A stretch of 64,000 nucleotides of DNA from Microvelia longipes (taxonomy: Eukaryota; Arthropoda; Insecta; Hemiptera; Veliidae). Every line of letters begins with the position of its first letter. The first letter of the stretch is position 1. Shown here piece after piece: positions 10,514 to 63,007 of the stretch. Position numbers and translations under genes: made by a program. The notes under the pieces are model-generated. The model was given only the letters and a program-made list of their open reading frames with translations, was not told the origin of the DNA and ran no database searches. The stretch is taken from NCBI GenBank assembly GCA_018340805.1, contig JACMZG010001914.1, positions 20,082,657 through 20,146,656 on the forward strand, read 5' to 3'.

Positions 10514-11110
10514 AGCGGGGCTCCAAAACGAGGCGTTCGACTTGCCCTAGAAGGGCTAATTAATTAGTGCTACGTCTCCTCAAAGTGATTTTTTTTTTTG
10601 AATCCAGGAATCCAGGTACTTTTAAATTTGTGATATATGTATACATATAACACACAAAACATAGTTCTATTACATATCACTAACTTTTAAATAAAGATAT
10701 NNNNNNNNNNATAACAAACGTAACCTGGGTTAAATACCTAAATATCACATTTTAAAATATCCTTCCCATAGAATCCCTAGAATCTTGTCGAGATTCAAAT
10801 TCAAATGTAACTTAGATGTAGTTATTGATTTGTTTAACTTTTTGAGGTTTTTGTTTCTTTTTTTTTTGTTATTTGTTATTTTCTTGAGAGGGGTGTTGAA
10901 GTTACAAGAAAATACAGTATTTCATTATTTTGAATTTTCCCGCCTTAGATAGATAAAATCATGTGTTAATAAAATTATATGTTTAACGTTTTGAGGTTAT
11001 CAAGATAAGATGTAACACGTTTTTTTGTTATTAATAAAAAGTACTTTTTCTAATTTTATTCTTTAATTATTTTAAAAATTACCCACACACTTTAATAATC
11101 GGCTTATTAT
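10514..11110. other. AT-rich flank, includes scaffold gap
   Basis: No gene is visible. If element 1 has a 3' LTR it would lie here, but the sequence is interrupted by ten N at 10701-10710 and no partner LTR is inside the window to compare with. Confidence 0.4.
10701..10710. other. assembly gap (10 N)
   Basis: Ten N bases mark a scaffold join of arbitrary length. Sequence on the two sides need not be adjacent in the genome. Confidence 0.98.
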
Positions 11111-32069: not shown

Positions 32070-32778
32070 AGTGAAATACAAAATAATTTCAAGATAATTA
32101 ATTACACAAAATCTTTACTTAATGATAAAATTACTAATTTAGGATTATCGTCCTCACATAGGGTTAAAAGAGGACTCATTAATGGGTTAGGTAGTATAGT
32201 CAAACTAATTTCGGGTAATTTAGACTCTAACGATGGGAAAGATATGATAAAATATTAAACCACTTACAAACAAACGAACAAAATATAGAAAATCAAATAG
32301 CTTATCAATATTCAGTTAACAACGAGTTAATAACAGAATTTAACAATACAGTTAGAGATATCCAATACAACACTTTAGAAATTAATTCAAAATTTCTTCA
32401 ATTAGAAAATAGAGTTATAAAAGAAGCCAACTATTTAGAAATATTAAATACAAAAAAACTCTTAAACCAAATTCAAATTATCTACAATCAGATACTTAAT
32501 GTATTACAAGATATAGAAAACTCTTTTTGCAAAATAAAAACACTTCATCCCAGTATAATTACTTCCCAAGACCTGTATAAAGAATTAATAAAAATAGAAA
32601 AACACCATTTAATCGGAGAGTTACCATTTAGTTTAACATATGACAATATTTTAGATTTTGAATCCTCGATAAAAGTAAATTGTAGAGTAAATAAGAACCA
32701 AATAACCTTCCTATTAGATATACCGCTCAATTCAAAAATAGAATACGACCTATATAAATTGTCAGGTGTATTAAATTA
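32070..32778 (+). pseudogene. env: F-like env glycoprotein (element 3, truncated)
   Basis: A furin-type site (RVKR) is followed by GLINGLGS at about 32163-32200, the same junction as in element 2. The long frame from about 32235 to 32778 is coiled-coil rich (LEINSKFLQLENRVIKEA) and well open. An indel near 32240 separates it from the cleavage-site frame. The gene is cut at 32759 by the left inverted repeat, and the final codons to 32778 are inside that repeat. The signal peptide and the membrane anchor are absent. Confidence 0.8.
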
Positions 32779-32982
32779 GACATTTTAATAGTTTTAATTT
32801 AGTTGATCTAAACGCCACCAGAGGCGAATCTCAAAGATTAATTAATAGAATCGCTCTCTTGCCCTGCAGACTTCGAGGAGTCAACATCTCATGGTAGAGG
32901 TACAAAATTCTTTTTATCTTAGGGGCCCTTTTATATTTATGTTTGTTCACCCAATATGTATTAAATACAGTGTATTAAAACA
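32760..32982 (+). repeat. left terminal inverted repeat (223 bp)
   Basis: Near-identical to the complement of 36856-37078 from TGTCAGGTGT to GTGTATTAAAACA. Contains the ATG of the methyltransferase ORF. Confidence 0.95.
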
Positions 32983-34072
32983 GGAACGAAGGAATTTGTT
33001 CGATAAATACTCATCTGAAACAGTACGTGAAGCGCAAAAATTTATACGAGGGTTTGATTATAAGCTATCGCGAGCATTTATTAAGTTGTATGAAATGGAT
33101 AACAAATTCAAATTGTTTGATGGTAGATCCTATGTACTTGTCCTCGGTGGTGCTCCTGGAGGTTGGATCGGATACATTAATCAAAATTACAAAAATGTAA
33201 ACGTTTGGTCAAATAAAAACATTCCTCATTCACAACCTACCGATAGAACTTACGTTGGAGACATTTTTGAAGAGCATTTCCTTTTTAAAGGCACATACGA
33301 TGTAGTGCTGGCCGACGCTTGCTTCGACGTTAAAGGTAAGGAAGATAACCAAGAGGCGCTTAACGATGATTTGATAAGGAGAGAGGTGTCTATTATGCAT
33401 CAGACTCTGGTTTTTGGTGGTACGTTTGTGCTGAAAATGATGGATACTTTAAAACCCGCTACTGTAAATTTTATAATCAAACTCAGTGAACACTTTAGAG
33501 ACGTCATTGTTTATAAACCTTTTTTTTCTGGTGAATTGAATTCTGAGAAATACTTAATAATGACCGGTTATCGTCTGGGCTCGACGAATGGTGAGAAGGT
33601 CTTTGAGGGTTTATGTAATGTATTGAGAGATCAAATTTATAATATCACTATTACACGTCGGAGACTCGACGATGTAGCAAATAATTCCACTGTGAAGGAC
33701 TCTTCTAATACGCTCCTCGTCGATGGATCAAGGCCGCGATACAGATATATGAATAGCGTTAATCCCAAATTGTATAAAGACTGTACCGTGTCGCTACAGA
33801 GGGAAATAGCGAAGGGTCCAAATGAGGAGAGAAGTTCGGTATCAAAATCTATTGACGTACCAACAGATGATCGTTACGAAGACCCGCTGCGATACAGCAA
33901 TCATAAATTTTTTATTGTGCCATACATCGATGAAAACTACTCTGACGAAGTTGACTTATACTTGAATAACATAGCGAAGGGTTTTGACATCGATAATAAA
34001 CAATTTGGAGTTATCTACGAGATTGATGGAAATAATTTTCTTATTAAATGTGACGAAATTTTCTTATTATAA
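32891..34072 (+). CDS. viral FtsJ-type 2'-O-methyltransferase segment (endogenous viral element)
   Basis: A 393-codon open frame. Residues 1-30 are encoded inside the left inverted repeat. From about residue 31 it is virus-like. The SAM-binding motif LGGAPGG is at residues 85-91. The K-D-K-E tetrad expected of FtsJ/RrmJ cap 2'-O-methyltransferases is readable as Lys65 (RAFIKLYEMD), Asp142 (VVLADAC), Lys182 (TFVLKMMD) and Glu219 (LNSEKYLIM). In nege/virga-like viruses this domain lies between the capping enzyme and the helicase of ORF1. After residue 260 the sequence is not assigned. The catalytic residues look intact although the locus is a fossil. Confidence 0.8.
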   Translation: MVEVQNSFYLRGPFIFMFVHPICIKYSVLKQERRNLFDKYSSETVREAQKFIRGFDYKLSRAFIKLYEMDNKFKLFDGRSYVLVLGGAPGGWIGYINQNYKNVNVWSNKNIPHSQPTDRTYVGDIFEEHFLFKGTYDVVLADACFDVKGKEDNQEALNDDLIRREVSIMHQTLVFGGTFVLKMMDTLKPATVNFIIKLSEHFRDVIVYKPFFSGELNSEKYLIMTGYRLGSTNGEKVFEGLCNVLRDQIYNITITRRRLDDVANNSTVKDSSNTLLVDGSRPRYRYMNSVNPKLYKDCTVSLQREIAKGPNEERSSVSKSIDVPTDDRYEDPLRYSNHKFFIVPYIDENYSDEVDLYLNNIAKGFDIDNKQFGVIYEIDGNNFLIKCDEIFLL

Positions 34073-34343
34073 TTTGAAAGACGTCATTGTTAAATATAAC
34101 GATAAGTATGCTATTGTGACTCCCCCTATGAACGGTGGTCCTTATTATTCATTGGAAAATTATGGTGTCGAAGAATTAGCTTCAACGGAACGTCATAAAA
34201 AATTTGAGAGAGATAATTTGGGCTTAAAATGCTTGCCTAACGACTCTTTTAAGTTTGAAGATGACGATATAATAAGGTACAAACCCACATTTATTGATAA
34301 CCCGGATAATGACAAAATATCAGATGTCGTAATGCTTTATTAG
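34073..34343 (+). pseudogene. viral interdomain segment, frame-shifted
   Basis: The 119-codon frame 33984-34343 overlaps the end of the methyltransferase frame. From about 34060 it appears to be the continuing viral coding frame (FKFEDDDIIRYKPTFIDNPD), ending at TAG 34341-34343. The stop and frame change show that the replicase is no longer a single polyprotein. Confidence 0.55.
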
Positions 34344-34363
34344 AACGATAACAACTGTCTAAA

Positions 34364-35302
34364 ATGATGCAATTGGAAATGTTGGCTGATCATCATGATG
34401 TAATCACGAATAAACTTTATTTCGGCGATATGAAGCACTTTCATAAAGCGTCGGAGTTCCTGGCTAATCGAGCGAATAAAGGATACGGACTTTACGATTG
34501 CGATTCGAGAAGGTGGATTTACCCTCCCAAGACTATTAGAGAGAATTATGGGTGGGCATTTAACGGTTCTAAATTTGTTGAAATTCGCAGCATAAAAGAC
34601 TGCAATTTATCTGGGCTTATCTTAGTTAGTGATTACACACAGATAATGTTAGAAGATCGATTTTACGACATACTCAGTAACTTGGATTTCACCTACTTTA
34701 GATTACCGACGATAGCATTTATTCAAGGAGTACCAGGTAGTGGAAAAACTCATTATATCTGTAATAATGCCGAACCCAATGCTTTAATTTTGACAAGTAC
34801 TAAGGAAGGGGCTATCGAATTCCAAACGATAACGGGTAGGTCAAGAGATCATGTTAGGACTCTGGATTCTTACGTTCTCAATTCTAAGAATATTTACGAA
34901 CACCTTTGGATAGATGAATGTCTAATGAAACATGCTGGTGATGTTTTGTTAGCTATGGCGATTTCTAGAGCAAAATTCGTTCATTTATTGGGAGACCCCG
35001 TTCAAATACTGTATAATTGTAGATCATCTTCAGTTACGGCGAGGTACGGAGATCTCACTGACATAGTCTCGGTTTCTCAATCTCTGTTAAATTCACGTCG
35101 TATCCCACGCGACATAGCTTGTCTCATTAATCCATTGTACGATGGCGACGTTAAGACGACGAATGAGGTACGGCGTAGTATCAAAATAGAGAACGTTGTT
35201 TCACGCATGGAGTGGTTGACTAACAATAAACCCGATCGTAATATAACACGGGCATTAGTTAAGCTTGTTATTAAGTTTGTTCACAACATATTTGAAGGAT
35301 GA
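34364..35302 (+). pseudogene. viral SF1 helicase, N-terminal half
   Basis: A 312-codon frame. Walker A is GVPGSGKTH at residues 122-130. Motif Ia is LILTSTKEGA near 141-150, motif II is LWIDECLMKHAGD (Asp184, Glu185), and motif III is VHLLGDPVQI near 206-215. These belong to the viral superfamily 1 RNA helicase of the alphavirus-like supergroup. The frame ends exactly at the solo LTR insertion, where its TGA is supplied by the first bases of the LTR. The C-terminal half resumes after 36262. Confidence 0.85.
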
Positions 35303-36257
35303 GATCATCCTGAGTTGGGACAATCTCAGGGTCGAGATAACATCCGTAGATGTTTTTAATTACCATGTTCTTTTAGCCTTGAAAGCCTGTAAATGAATGC
35401 GTTGTTATGCCAGTGTGAATGAGTGTGAGTGAAACCCGTGAATTTAACATGTCCAATTAGATTATGCTTCAATGAGCACACGTGCCGATAGGATTGGTCT
35501 TCTGGAAGGGGTATACCACCCTTGGCTATTTAAGCTAGCTCTGGAGACCAATCGAGAGAGTTGCAAGCAGTGATAGAGTAGAGATAGAAGAGTTATTAAG
35601 TAGTAACAGATCAGTAATGAATCGTCAAGAAGTGATAGAAGAGTTATTAGAGTAGTAACAAATCAGTTAAAGAGTATTAGAGTAGTAACAGATAAGTAAT
35701 GAATCGAGAGTAGTGATAAGAGAGTCATAGAGAGTTCTCGATCAGTAATGAATCGTCAAGAAGTGATAGAAGAGTTATTAGAGTAGTAACAAATCAGTTA
35801 AAGAGTATTAGAGTAGTAACAGATAAGTAATGAATCGAGAGTAGTGATAAGAGAGTTCTCGATCAGTAATGAATCGTCGAGAAGTGATAGAAGAGTTATT
35901 AAAGTAGTAACAATACAGTAATCAAAGAGTCATTTAATAGTAAGGTTTCAGTAACCAATTAGTATCAGCTTGAGAATCGAGTAAGAGATAAGATGCTCCT
36001 CACCTTTATCGTCGCAGCGACCTGTAAGTAATTTATTATAGTAATTTATTATAGTAATTTACATTTGTAGGTGCATAGTAATTTATTAACTTATAAACTG
36101 ACTGATCTTACCTAGACCTGTTAAGCATACCTGATACCATTAAATATATATGTCAGCTTACATTTATCAATAAACGTATTAACTCTGGATGCTACTTATG
36201 TTTTCTGATTAACACCCTGATATCTTTCAGACTTCACTAGGCCAGGATTCCTAGTCA
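35300..36257 (+). mobile_element. solo LTR (958 bp) inserted in the helicase gene
   Basis: Flanked by a perfect 5-bp duplication AAGGA (35295-35299 and 36258-36262). It starts TGAGATCATCC and ends CCTAGTCA, so it has TG...CA ends. It carries a TATTTAAG promoter-like box near 35527 and AATAAA near 36171, consistent with plus orientation. About three copies of a unit of roughly 120-130 bases (AATGAATCGTCAAGAAGTGA) fill 35610-35930. No internal coding region remains, as expected after LTR-LTR recombination. Confidence 0.85.
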
Positions 36258-36262
36258 AAGGA

Positions 36263-36891
36263 ATCCCCTTTTTCTGTGGGGTTCCGGATTGGCCATCCGG
36301 TGTGAGTTCACCCAAAGCCCCACGGTTAAACGTAACAAAGATATAAAGTTGTTAACATTCTGTCAGGATGAGAAGGATACGCTTGTTAAGGCTGGTTATG
36401 ATGCTTCTACAGTACACGAGTTCCAGGGTAAACAGAGCAACCATATAATAATTATAAGACTCAATGCAATCGCCACGACAACTGTATTTTCTTATCAGGC
36501 TCACCAAGTGGTTGCAGCTTCTAGGCACAGGAAGACTTTAACATATGTCACGTTAATGCTTGGCGCTTTCGTCGATTTTTTGAAAACGTTAGTCACCGAA
36601 TCTCAATTGGATGACGTCTACGTCAACGAGAATTTTAAAGGAGGAGCTTCTATATTAAAACCGAGACATCGTGTGACTATTAATACTGATCAGGCTGAAT
36701 TTGGGTTTGTTAGCACTATACATCATACTAACAAGTATCATCCTCAAACTACTAGTGTTATAGATTTTTATACCCGTGATAGTGACGCTATAGTTTTTAA
36801 GCAAATGTTTGAGATACCAGCATTTGAGGATGTTATGCCCGGCGAATCCACCATATGTTTTAATACACTGTATTTAATACATATTGGGTGA
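36263..36891 (+). pseudogene. viral SF1 helicase, C-terminal half and linker
   Basis: The open frame (from about 36289) carries motif V as STVHEFQGKQ (residues 40-49) and motif VI as VVAASRHRKTLTY (74-86), completing the SF1 helicase core. A further 100 residues correspond to the region between helicase and polymerase in the replicase, and no RdRp motif is reached. The frame ends inside the right inverted repeat. It is offset by one base from the N-terminal half across the LTR insertion, so there is at least one indel as well. Confidence 0.82.
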
Positions 36892-37078
36892 ACAAACATA
36901 AATATAAAAGGGCCCCCAAGATAAAAAGAATTTTGTACCTCTACCATGAGATGTTGACTCCTCGAAGTCTGCAGGGCAAGAGAGCGATTCTAATAATTAA
37001 TCTTTGAGATTCGCCTCTGGTGGCGTTTAGATGAACTAAAGTAAAACTATTAAAATGTCTAATTTAATACACCTGACA
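36856..37078 (-). repeat. right terminal inverted repeat (223 bp)
   Basis: Inverted copy of 32760-32982. Followed by AAAT at 37079-37082. Confidence 0.95.
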
Positions 37079-37082
37079 AAAT

Positions 37083-37574
37083 TTGTACCGGAGTGTCGCG
37101 CTTATGTCCTTGGCTTTTATTCTAGGTTGCGGTTAAAAAGCACATCTTAAGATGAAGAAGATCAAGAAGGTATCGGCGTCGGCATTTTTCTTTATTCCAT
37201 GCTTTTTCGTCAAAGTTTTAGTCGACTATGTCGAATTTATTTTATAATTTATGTATCTAGAGTTTGCTATACGTTCAGGAGCATATCCTGTTTTTTCTTT
37301 TATAGCTGTTGAGAAATGAGTTTGCATTACATACATAAAGCAACAAAATACATAAGCAATTTTTAGCATTTTATGCCGTCACTTCTCATAATTGAGGTAA
37401 GCCGACTTCCTGCCCTTTTATAGCCAACTATTTCTAGTTTTAAGCATATTTGTTGATGTCTAAGCCTATTTACTTCACGTCTAAACCCTCCTATCATGTT
37501 AAATTATGTAACGAATGCTACATACTCTAGGATACTGTTTCAGGCGTAACGAGCCAGTCTCGTCAAGCTGTGTC
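37083..37574. other. unassigned sequence right of the viral element
   Basis: The first few codons after the right repeat could continue the interrupted env frame of element 3, after which nothing env-like is visible. The rest is non-coding as far as I can see. Confidence 0.4.
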
Positions 37575-37744
37575 GTCAGGATAACGTCTAGTCAAGTTAT
37601 CGTCCAGGTTGTATGTCGAGTTATCGTCAGGATAACGTCTAGTCAAGTTATCGTCCAGGGTGTATGTTGGGTTGTCGTCAGGACAACGTCTAGTTGGATT
37701 ATTCGTCAGGGTGTACGTCAAGTTGTCGTCAGTGAACGTCAAGC
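37575..37744 (+). repeat. 51-bp minisatellite, 3.3 copies
   Basis: Units start at 37575, 37626, 37677 and 37728 with GTCAGGATAACGTCTAGT. The exact 51-base period leaves an open frame through the array (37515-37784), which I regard as a by-product. Confidence 0.9.
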
Positions 37745-38506
37745 CTACAGTCTGGCTTATTGTACTCGAAAAGCTAGACTTTGAGAGTCGTGATTTATAA
37801 AGACTTTAATTTACTATTCTCTAGTACTTATCACTACTTTATACGACAAAGACAGAACTATTATTACATATAATTTACTCTTAATATTACAATTTGATTT
37901 TATCGAAAGATATTGTTCTAGCCTGGTAGTCTGTGGTCGGTTTATGGCCAAAATCGACCCCAGCGTCCTCGCCATATATATCTTAAGAAGCAACAAAATA
38001 AAATTTCTTTACGGGTTTAAACTCCCAGCTGTGAAGCACTATTTGTTCATAAAAAAATTTAGTATTGGTGGTCTTACTTTAAGATATATTATAATTTGAA
38101 AAACACTCATAGAATTTATTTTTTTGTATTTCTTATTTTCCACATTATAGAGCATGAAAATAAATTAATTGTGTTCTGACTTTTATTTCTTTTATTTTTA
38201 GTTTTTTTACAGCTAGCCAAGGTACAAATTATTATTAATCCCCACAAGGAATAAGGATTATGCCACTATTATTTCTGAATCCAAATTTCTTCTAAGGTCA
38301 GATAACGATATGATCGAACCATTTGTACATAAACCATGGTTTATGTACAAAACAGCGTGTGTACCAGTGTGTCCACATTAATTATTATCATCATACAAAG
38401 CACAATGTGAAAAGAATATAATCCTTAAATAAAACTCTAAGCCTTGCAAGTTCACGAAGGTTAACATCGTAAAAAATGACGTACAATATATTACAGAGAT
38501 TATAAC
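37745..38506. other. no gene seen
   Basis: AT-rich sequence without motifs. A short inverted repeat GGTTTATGTACAAA occurs near 38322-38350 (ACATAAACCATGGTTTATGT). Confidence 0.45.
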
Positions 38507-46470: not shown

Positions 46471-46651
46471 TTAGTAAATACAGGTAGAGTTCAAAAAGAA
46501 AATTTAAGTATTTAGGTCATCATGTCAAAACATTCAGATTATTTTTTTTAAAAATTAAGGTGTAGAGATCATTCTTTTTTTTGGCTTGACTCAAAGAATG
46601 AGCACATTAAATTTGTTTATTAGGGACACTTTTAAGTAGGATTTTTGTATA

Positions 46652-47096
46652 AGGCGCGATCGAATATCTAGAACGTTGGATCACCAACAAACTTTTTTTT
46701 ATAATTTTTTTTCAAAATTTTCAGTAATTAGCCGGATTTGTGATAAATGAAGCCTATCTCCGTAATCTGCGCGCTCTTTTGGTTAATCTCAAAGAGTATT
46801 TACATTTACTCAACGATTTATTTTTAATCTAACTTGGTACATACATAACTACTGTTAGACGTCAATATTTTGTGTTTGTTAACATTGACGTCTAACAGTA
46901 GTTATGTATGTACCAAGTTAGATTAAAAATAAATCGTTGAGTGAATGTAAATACTCATTGAGATTAACCAAAAGAGCGCGCAGATTACGGAAATAGGCTT
47001 CATTTATCACAAATCCGGTAATTACTGAAAATTTTGAAAAAAAAATTATAAAAAAGTTTGTTGGTGATCCAACGTTCTAGATATTCGATCGCGCCT
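46652..47096. mobile_element. palindromic MITE with TA duplication
   Basis: The left arm (46652-46866) is almost perfectly complementary to the right arm (46884-47096), with a 17-base loop at 46867-46883. The ends are AGGCGCGATCGAATATCTAG and its complement. TA flanks both ends, as for mariner/Tc1-type MITEs. It has no coding capacity. Only a few mismatches or indels separate the arms. Confidence 0.92.
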
Positions 47097-47099
47097 TAT

Positions 47100-61711: not shown

Positions 61712-63007
61712 TTAAAAATCTAAAAAATAATCATCAGAGAAGCTTATAGTATCTGTTGATATTTCTTCATTATGAACATTGTTAATAATATCAAAGGATC
61801 CATTTCCTATTAATAAATAACCTGTGCTCAATGATATTATTTTATTATCTACAGGCAATATATCTTTGACTAAAATTTCACATCTTTTGGTATCATTTGG
61901 TCTTATTATGTCACCTAGACAAATATTTTTTGTAGTGAATGTTAGAGAATCAGAATTACATATTATTATATTCTCTATAGTTTTCCATTCTCCTTGTTCA
62001 TACTCTAAGAAATAGTCATTCATTCCTTTCCGTAAAAGAAGAGCTCTCTTAGGAATGTTTAACTTATATTTATGTTCTCCTTTTGACCATCCAAAGTTAT
62101 ATATATTATAAAGTTTTACAAATCTATCAATCCTCATGTCTGGGATAATGATATAAAAATCAAATTCTAAGTTATTGTGTCTAATGAGAAGTGATTTACT
62201 AACCCCGTAGAATAGAGACGGATTCATAGTGATTATATGATTTGATAATCTCTCATCATTCAGAACTAGATGTTTCAATATTTTCATAGGGAAGAATTTT
62301 CTTTTGACATTGCCCAATATAGCTGATAGAATGCTATCATAATCTTCTTCTGTCTTCAGATAATCTATTCCTTGATGTAATATAATTTTATCTTTAGCTT
62401 CATGACAGATATTATCTTGTGTAGTATGATAAACTGTTTCTGAGATATTGTTTACATATTTATGTATTAAAATTTGATTTCTCGTAAGCACTGATATGTT
62501 CTCTGTTATGTTACGATAACTAGTATTAATATTATGATCCATCTGAGATATCTCTTCTGCTAAATGATCTATATGTATGCGATTCATGTTTGACATTATT
62601 CCATCTATGGGAATACTTGCACTAAATAATGTTGGTATAATAAACCTCTTAGACCTTTTATTTAAACACTTAGTGTTGTCCTTCTGACAACTTAATCTTG
62701 AAAATAGATCATCTCTTGGAATGCTATGTATTATTTCTGATATCATATTACTTCTCCTATTATAATACGATTCATATAATTCAGGTAAACCTTCACAATC
62801 CTTTATTATTTCTGGTATATTATACGTATTATCAATGACGTACTTATATCTTGTTATAATGTGATCATTATAATATAAACCATGATGTCTGTAGTCTACA
62901 TAAACTCCAAGATTACTCATGTACATAGATGATATCTCACTGATAGAGTAAGGTCTTTCAAGTGATAATGTGATTATCAATAATAAGTAAAGATAATTTT
63001 AGATCAT
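61712..63007 (-). pseudogene. env: env-like fusion glycoprotein, nearly open
   Basis: The minus-strand frame has an ATG at 63007-63005, then an in-frame TAA at codon 3 (63001-62999). It is then open for about 428 codons to 61712. The start is hydrophobic (LYLLLIITLSL, signal-like). A furin-type site (RSKR) occurs about 120 codons in, followed by FIIPTLFSAS and a heptad-rich region with N-glycosylation sites. Later FYIIIPDMRIDRFVKLYNIY resembles the C-terminal half of F-like env proteins. No integrase or RT lies next to it. It is likely an env from a retroelement or a virus and is far better preserved than the envs upstream. Confidence 0.6.

Follow-up and report, generated by a model that had tools for sequence, protein, structure and literature searches.

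A probable Ty3/Gypsy reverse-transcription product carrying RNA-virus sequence in the genome of Microvelia longipes

How does a piece of an RNA virus come to lie, as one insertion, between two inverted repeats in an insect genome? A locus of this kind is found in a 64,000-nt stretch of Microvelia longipes DNA (assembly GCA_018340805.1, contig JACMZG010001914.1, forward-strand positions 20,082,657-20,146,656), hereafter the window, where replicase sequence resembling that of a plus-strand RNA virus is enclosed by two 223-nt arms. We analysed the window together with searches of the host genome that covered 664.6 Mb in 1,470 contigs; L-numbers denote loci fetched from that genome. The unit is, in our judgement, probably a single reverse-transcription product of a Ty3/Gypsy long terminal repeat (LTR) retrotransposon, made on an RNA-virus template and inserted once by the integrase of that element. 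The features read from the sequence that carry this explanation are arms corresponding to the U3 (unique 3′) side of an LTR, outer ends that coincide with the U3 start, an inner end at the same LTR base in both arms, a scar of a primer-binding site and a 4-bp target duplication.

Origin of the arms

The arms, at 32760-32982 (+) and 36856-37078 (−), are inverted copies of 223 nt each that mismatch at 4 of 223 positions, much as a preliminary description of the window had stated. That description took them for the ends of a DNA transposon or foldback element, and here the host genome points elsewhere. A search with one arm gave at least 24 matches, two being the window's own and 22 lying elsewhere (17 near full length and 5 partial), and all 17 near-full-length copies ran on beyond base 223 with similar sequence. 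For that reason we dropped the possibility that the 223 bp form an entire LTR (TGT...ACA) in a subfamily with short LTRs. Judged by these copies, the arm corresponds to bases 1-223 of a Ty3/Gypsy LTR with a full length of about 260-285 bp, which begins TGTCAGG in nearly all copies and ends CCTAACA. The outer end of each arm is the U3 start of this LTR, and the inner end of each is the same LTR base.

The family has five same-strand LTR pairs, spaced 1.3 to 10 kb. Seven copies share an upstream stretch ending CAGATGGAGA, which we read as a polypurine tract, and all seven start there with TGTCAGG, like the outer ends of the arms. In other copies, the LTR is followed by AA and a primer-binding site that pairs with the 3′ terminus of tRNA-Ala. 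The 15-mer from this site has 43 occurrences in the genome, 21 of which lie in the 20 loci that we read. ARAGORN placed tRNA-Ala genes in seven of these loci (L067, L068, L073 and L075-L078), and these genes terminate in a sequence complementary to the primer-binding site of the family. It called no tRNA-Ala gene in the remaining 13 loci; several of these resemble primer-binding sites belonging to other LTR families. Only end pieces were read for most family copies; two carry integrase domains of Ty3 type, one of them with Ty3 Gag-Pol as its best solved match (E value 1.7e-43), and L015 carries a retrotransposon gag domain (E value 5.3e-7). Identical 4-bp flanks (AATT, CTTA and GATC) were present at three of seven testable family insertions. 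On the strength of its integrase, gag domain and LTR features, the element that donated the arms appears to be Ty3/Gypsy-like. The same features (same-strand LTR pairs, polypurine tract, tRNA-Ala site and integrase) tell against the earlier assignment to a DNA transposon or foldback element.

The shared inner end of the arms may have a simple origin. An ATTAAA motif starts at arm base 201, 22 nt ahead of base 223; that base is the A of a CA dinucleotide, and complete LTRs continue from it with GT-rich sequence. Base 223 is therefore read as the probable poly(A) site, where R (repeat) would meet U5 (unique 5′), and in this reading the last ~50 bp of the LTR, which both arms lack, would be U5. 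A poly(A) site at base 223 would explain why both arms stop at the same inner end, and both would then be U3-R sequence templated by the 3′ end of the element's RNA. Because the arms are inverted and lack those ~50 bp, the unit would be a by-product of the Ty3/Gypsy family and not a regular member of it.

A primer-binding-site scar beside the right arm

The left arm ends at LTR base 223 and is joined directly to viral sense sequence. The right arm, followed inward on the minus strand, passes from LTR base 223 through two bases (36854-36855) into an 18-nt stretch, TGGTGGATTCGCCGGGCA (36836-36853, −), and then into antisense viral sequence. The 18-nt stretch matches the family's tRNA-Ala primer-binding site at 16 of 18 positions, compared with 13 of 18 for the next best place in the window, and the chance of at least 16 of 18 at a fixed place is about 6e-10. 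Such a scar is present on the right arm only.

Two companion copies suggest how it may have arisen. Six family junctions of LTR and primer-binding site were found at up to three mismatches; four of them (L010, L012, L020 and L083) share the same leader and two (L015 and L018) are rearranged, and the L022 copy has lost its primer-binding site. In L015, the site ends GGGCA and goes straight into antisense gag at a place where L020 reads TGCCC; this antisense stretch extends as far back as the primer-binding site and slightly beyond it into the end of the LTR, before it switches to the sense 3′ end. The site of L018 likewise ends GGGCA and goes, with a gap, into antisense LTR at TGCCC, ending at an inverted LTR start. 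There are thus three cases (the window, L015 and L018) in which the sequence turns antisense after the 18-nt site. Plus-strand strong-stop DNA ends after copying 18 nt of the tRNA, with a stop at methylated A58, and a turn to antisense after the 18-nt site is what would be expected if such DNA primed on plus-sense RNA. According to the available text of a Ty3 review, dead-end plus-strand strong-stop DNA accumulates in Ty3 particles (PMC5371799). As L015 and L018 are both rearranged from the same site through GGGCA, mispriming of plus-strand strong-stop DNA on plus-sense RNA looks recurrent in the arm family; for the virus itself, we infer it.

Other repeats with the tRNA-Ala site (L066, L072, L074, L079 and L081) contain tRNA-Ala sequence beyond the 18 nt. 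Four of these five match up to about tRNA position 38 and then diverge, as if strong-stop DNA had read through A58 and stopped at base 37, which is a modified base in tRNA.

The viral interior

Viral sequence occupies 32983-35241 (+), which holds an FtsJ-like methyltransferase (Pfam E value 8.5e-26, match at 33068-33571) and the first part of a viral superfamily 1 (SF1) helicase (3.9e-18, at 34721-35176) and is not one open frame, and it resumes at 36331-36835 (+) with the remaining helicase (2.8e-9) and the start of the next linker. The virus-type interior of FtsJ and helicase described earlier is thus borne out. By its replicase domains lying in host DNA, the interior qualifies as endogenous plus-strand RNA-virus sequence, putatively of the nege/virga type. 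The helicase sequence matches four solved structures, to which the depositors gave the names helicase (6jim), Protease nsP2 (7y38) and Replicase large subunit (3vkw and 3wrx). A related viral helicase in the same genome, L029, is 80% and 64% identical over two parts, and homology to it extends to about 36816; the ~85 nt immediately inward of the left arm and the ~19 nt ahead of the scar matched nothing by homology and are assigned to the virus solely because they adjoin it.

The two parts of the helicase are separated by 1,089 bp (35242-36330) that are absent from L029 and have CGTAA on both sides (35237-35241 and 36331-36335). This is an insertion, as had been noticed before, although its identity as a later solo LTR was not confirmed. 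Between the arms, then, lie virus sequence and this later insertion, and not the gag-pol of the arm family.

At the DNA level, the FtsJ-containing interior is single-copy in the host genome, giving no sign that the arm-virus-arm unit moved again. At the protein level, FtsJ had just two weak further matches in that genome (E value about 6e-4) and the helicase had 64 rows, some being pieces of one place. None of the 64 helicase rows fell inside any of the five same-strand LTR pairs, and no FtsJ relative was found there either. Searching for repeat and interior separately, the check suggested at the outset, thus gave a split result: the repeat exists elsewhere (at least 22 other matches), and its FtsJ and helicase cargo was not found in the other LTR pairs. 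A comparison of the FtsJ piece with viral_contigs found no viral relative, and protein searches for viral relatives gave one weak match for FtsJ and none for the helicase.

L029, with L048 (C1361:29106000-29115900), marks a second virus insertion, with helicase and RdRP_2. It sits among stretches that we read as frames of a long interspersed nuclear element (LINE), and a related virus was possibly caught there by another type of retroelement. Without the window and L029, 62 helicase rows remain; we suspected these to be more virus insertions, a reading set aside because the loci fetched are repeat-like. Among 18 fetched helicase loci (L030-L047), 17 form four groups with copies ~98-99% alike, and L039 is ~65% like the others. 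A LINE endonuclease was present in both loci tested (L041 and L043) and adjoins the helicase in L043. Multi-copy helicase repeats with a LINE endonuclease fit the viral helicases published for insect LINEs (PMC5563155). Seven of the 18 loci also bear a 44-nt near-palindrome.

Insertion into an env gene

To the left of the unit lies an env region of Baculo_F type from an errantivirus-like element (32072-32759, +), with 93.8-95.3% identity to L051, L052 and L055. Relatives of this flank comprised 28 other copies at 86-95% and 11 at 72-73% identity, among 40 scored of 58 candidates. The L055 frame across the insertion site contains a Baculo_F domain (E value 4.5e-18), and we take the region to be an errantivirus env of the fusion-protein type. 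AAAT stands at 32756-32759 and again at 37079-37082; the chance of AAAT at one fixed place is ~1.3% at the base composition of the window. The paralogous env copies L051-L057 all lack the insertion (7 of 7), and each has AAAT once, for which reason we take the duplication as real.

The right flank first showed no match in L051-L057, and env resumes only at 38227 (38227-38502, +). This mismatch is explained by a second, adjoining insertion at 37084-38226, which separates the right AAAT from the remaining env. It is solo-LTR-like (TGTACC...GGTACA), is flanked by AATT (37080-37083 and 38227-38230) and is a different repeat from the arms, with five genome matches including itself. The possibility that the right AAAT is a chance occurrence, raised by the fact that env stopped after it, was rejected since the adjoining insertion accounts for the gap. 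Once both insertions are allowed for, AAAT stands precisely at either border of the arm-virus-arm unit. The 4-bp target duplication and the insertion as one unit into an env gene, both proposed previously, therefore stand. The insertion that directly adjoins the viral unit also contains a tandem repeat of 51 nt.

A candidate route of assembly

These features could be produced by the following route. Minus-strand DNA primed by tRNA-Ala would jump early, leaving the primer-binding site for the 3′ end of the element's RNA and skipping U5. Priming from the polypurine tract on that strand would give plus-strand strong-stop DNA consisting of U3, R and primer-binding site. The 3′ end of this DNA (GGGCA) would anneal to plus-sense viral RNA and be extended into antisense viral cDNA. 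At the end of the template, the cDNA would jump to the 3′ end of element RNA and copy R and U3, and polypurine-tract priming would then make the second strand, yielding a linear DNA that has U3 at both ends. Integrase would finally insert this DNA into env with a 4-bp duplication. We infer the first five of these steps; for the third as written, with GGGCA annealing to viral RNA, we lean moderately in its favour.

Wherever the arms differ (four positions), one of the two matches the base shared by 15 of 15 aligned copies of the family. The arms were therefore most likely identical at insertion, as the model predicts. The usual insect substitution rates are roughly 3e-9 to 1e-8 per site and year, and 4 differences in 223 would correspond to an age of about one to three million years. 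We set autointegration aside as a source of the structure, as the inner joins are at a primer-binding-site end and at a non-terminal LTR base, and not at an LTR end.

Several observations weigh against this reconstruction. Four of seven tested family insertions lack an exact 4-bp duplication, and the L018 flanks show none. In the L022 pair, no polypurine tract precedes the second copy, so that this pair may not be a single element. The poly(A) site at base 223 is a plausible prediction from the sequence. The scar has two mismatches, its exact 15-mer occurs nowhere else in the genome, and the spacer reads TA in the window against AA in the family. We take the mismatches as decay, since L015 and L018 carry one and two changes; the alternative that the scar is the site of a different tRNA was rejected, its exact 15-mer occurring only in the window. 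GGGCA of L015 and L018 is present in the template as well and may in those copies come from there rather than from the tRNA; for the window, L029 is too different at that place to stand in for the viral template. The viral case is, moreover, a single one.

Alternative explanations

The strongest alternative, although unlikely, is that the viral fragment was resident in the genome first and that two LTRs then inserted independently on either side of it, or that inversion or ectopic recombination placed it between two LTRs. The region is indeed dense with nested repeats, and a solo LTR of the arm family with its own duplication exists (L019). However, neither arm has a duplication of its own, and the sole matching flanks are the outer AAAT copies, backed by the empty paralogous sites. 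Two independent truncations would hardly give the same non-terminal stop in both arms, and the arm differences are private.

A palindrome created by misassembly would be conceivable in so repeat-rich a region, but we consider it very improbable: the four arm differences are explained as private mutations, the inner junctions are unlike each other, env accounts for the outer flanks, and N occurs in the window only at 10701-10710. Slightly less credible still is the capture of viral cDNA by a non-autonomous DNA transposon, or by a foldback element, whose terminal inverted repeats would be the 223-bp arms. Equal inverted arms and a 4-bp duplication are what such an element would show, but the arm family forms five same-strand pairs, 17 of its 17 near-full-length copies extend beyond the arm end, and no other copy with both inverted ends was found among the at least 24 arm matches, where the only opposite-strand neighbours apart from the window are two pieces in L018. 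Least probable of all is a tyrosine-recombinase retrotransposon of the DIRS type, whose inverted LTRs (described for DIRS-1 in the available text of PMC5633606) would account for inverted LTR-like ends around a reverse-transcribed interior, but not for the same-strand LTR pairs and Ty3-type integrase of the arm family. DIRS elements would not be expected to leave a 4-bp duplication.

Two further observations concern other parts of the window. A 450-bp stretch at 46649-47099 is its own inverted repeat at 94% in a self-comparison of the window. At 61712-62980 (−), a 422-amino-acid open frame with an RSKR motif looks like an errantivirus-type env; it had no Pfam match above the cut-off.

Relation to known systems

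Capture of RNA-virus sequence by LTR retrotransposons is already known from published work (PMC6797480, PMC5177903). Virus-LTR retrotransposon hybrids and endogenous viral elements (EVEs) are described from Aedes cells (PMC6797480), where, as here, RNA-virus cDNA is joined to Ty3/Gypsy sequence, and an EVE derived from cell fusing agent virus (CFAV) is flanked by LTRs and gag. Unlike the present unit, the available text of that account mentions no inverted ends or primer-binding-site scar, and it describes the recombination as sequence-independent. In Bursaphelenchus xylophilus, a nodavirus-like EVE lies in a Bel/Pao LTR element (PMC5177903). It resembles our case as a single-copy plus-strand RNA-virus replicase within an LTR structure, its capture being attributed to non-homologous recombination, but the word 'inverted' is absent from what is available of that account.

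Other likenesses concern the mechanism. LTR-mediated retroposition of cellular mRNAs (Tan et al. 2016, as reported in PMC5408686) also involves template switching at short similarities within particles, followed by integration; it concerns host mRNA, however, and two inward-facing ends are not described in the text available. The dead-end plus-strand strong-stop DNA of Ty1 and Ty3 is a free primer of the kind that the right arm resembles, although the accessible part of that account (PMC5371799) does not describe its extension on a foreign template. Insect LINEs with viral SF1 helicases (PMC5563155, PMC4686597, each available in part) offer another example of a viral helicase taken into an insect retroelement, and similar helicase repeats exist in the host genome. 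Their helicase belongs to the LINE open reading frame, whereas that of the window is a broken single copy between LTR arms. The preliminary description knew of no element of this kind. LTR capture of RNA viruses does have precedents, but neither a viral insert enclosed by two U3-R ends that face inward nor a scar of this type was found in a literature search that saw its sources in part and had most subscription journals outside its coverage.

How RNA viruses that lack a reverse transcriptase enter animal genomes is often inferred from nearby LTR sequence. The scars described here suggest, in addition, an identity for the intermediate that acquired the viral RNA and a place for its jump. More tentatively, and as a reading that we judge somewhat less likely than not, displaced plus-strand strong-stop DNA of the arm family may prime any plus-sense RNA within the particle and so constitute a distinct, recurrent route of virus entry. 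Its products would have inward-facing, promoter-bearing U3-R ends without U5, and a cassette of this form could be read from both ends, giving sense and antisense viral RNA that would feed RNA interference directed at the virus. If the route is general, inverted U3-R ends together with a primer-binding-site scar would be a searchable signature in other genomes, and the presumed inward-facing promoters suggest a testable idea for antiviral small RNAs.

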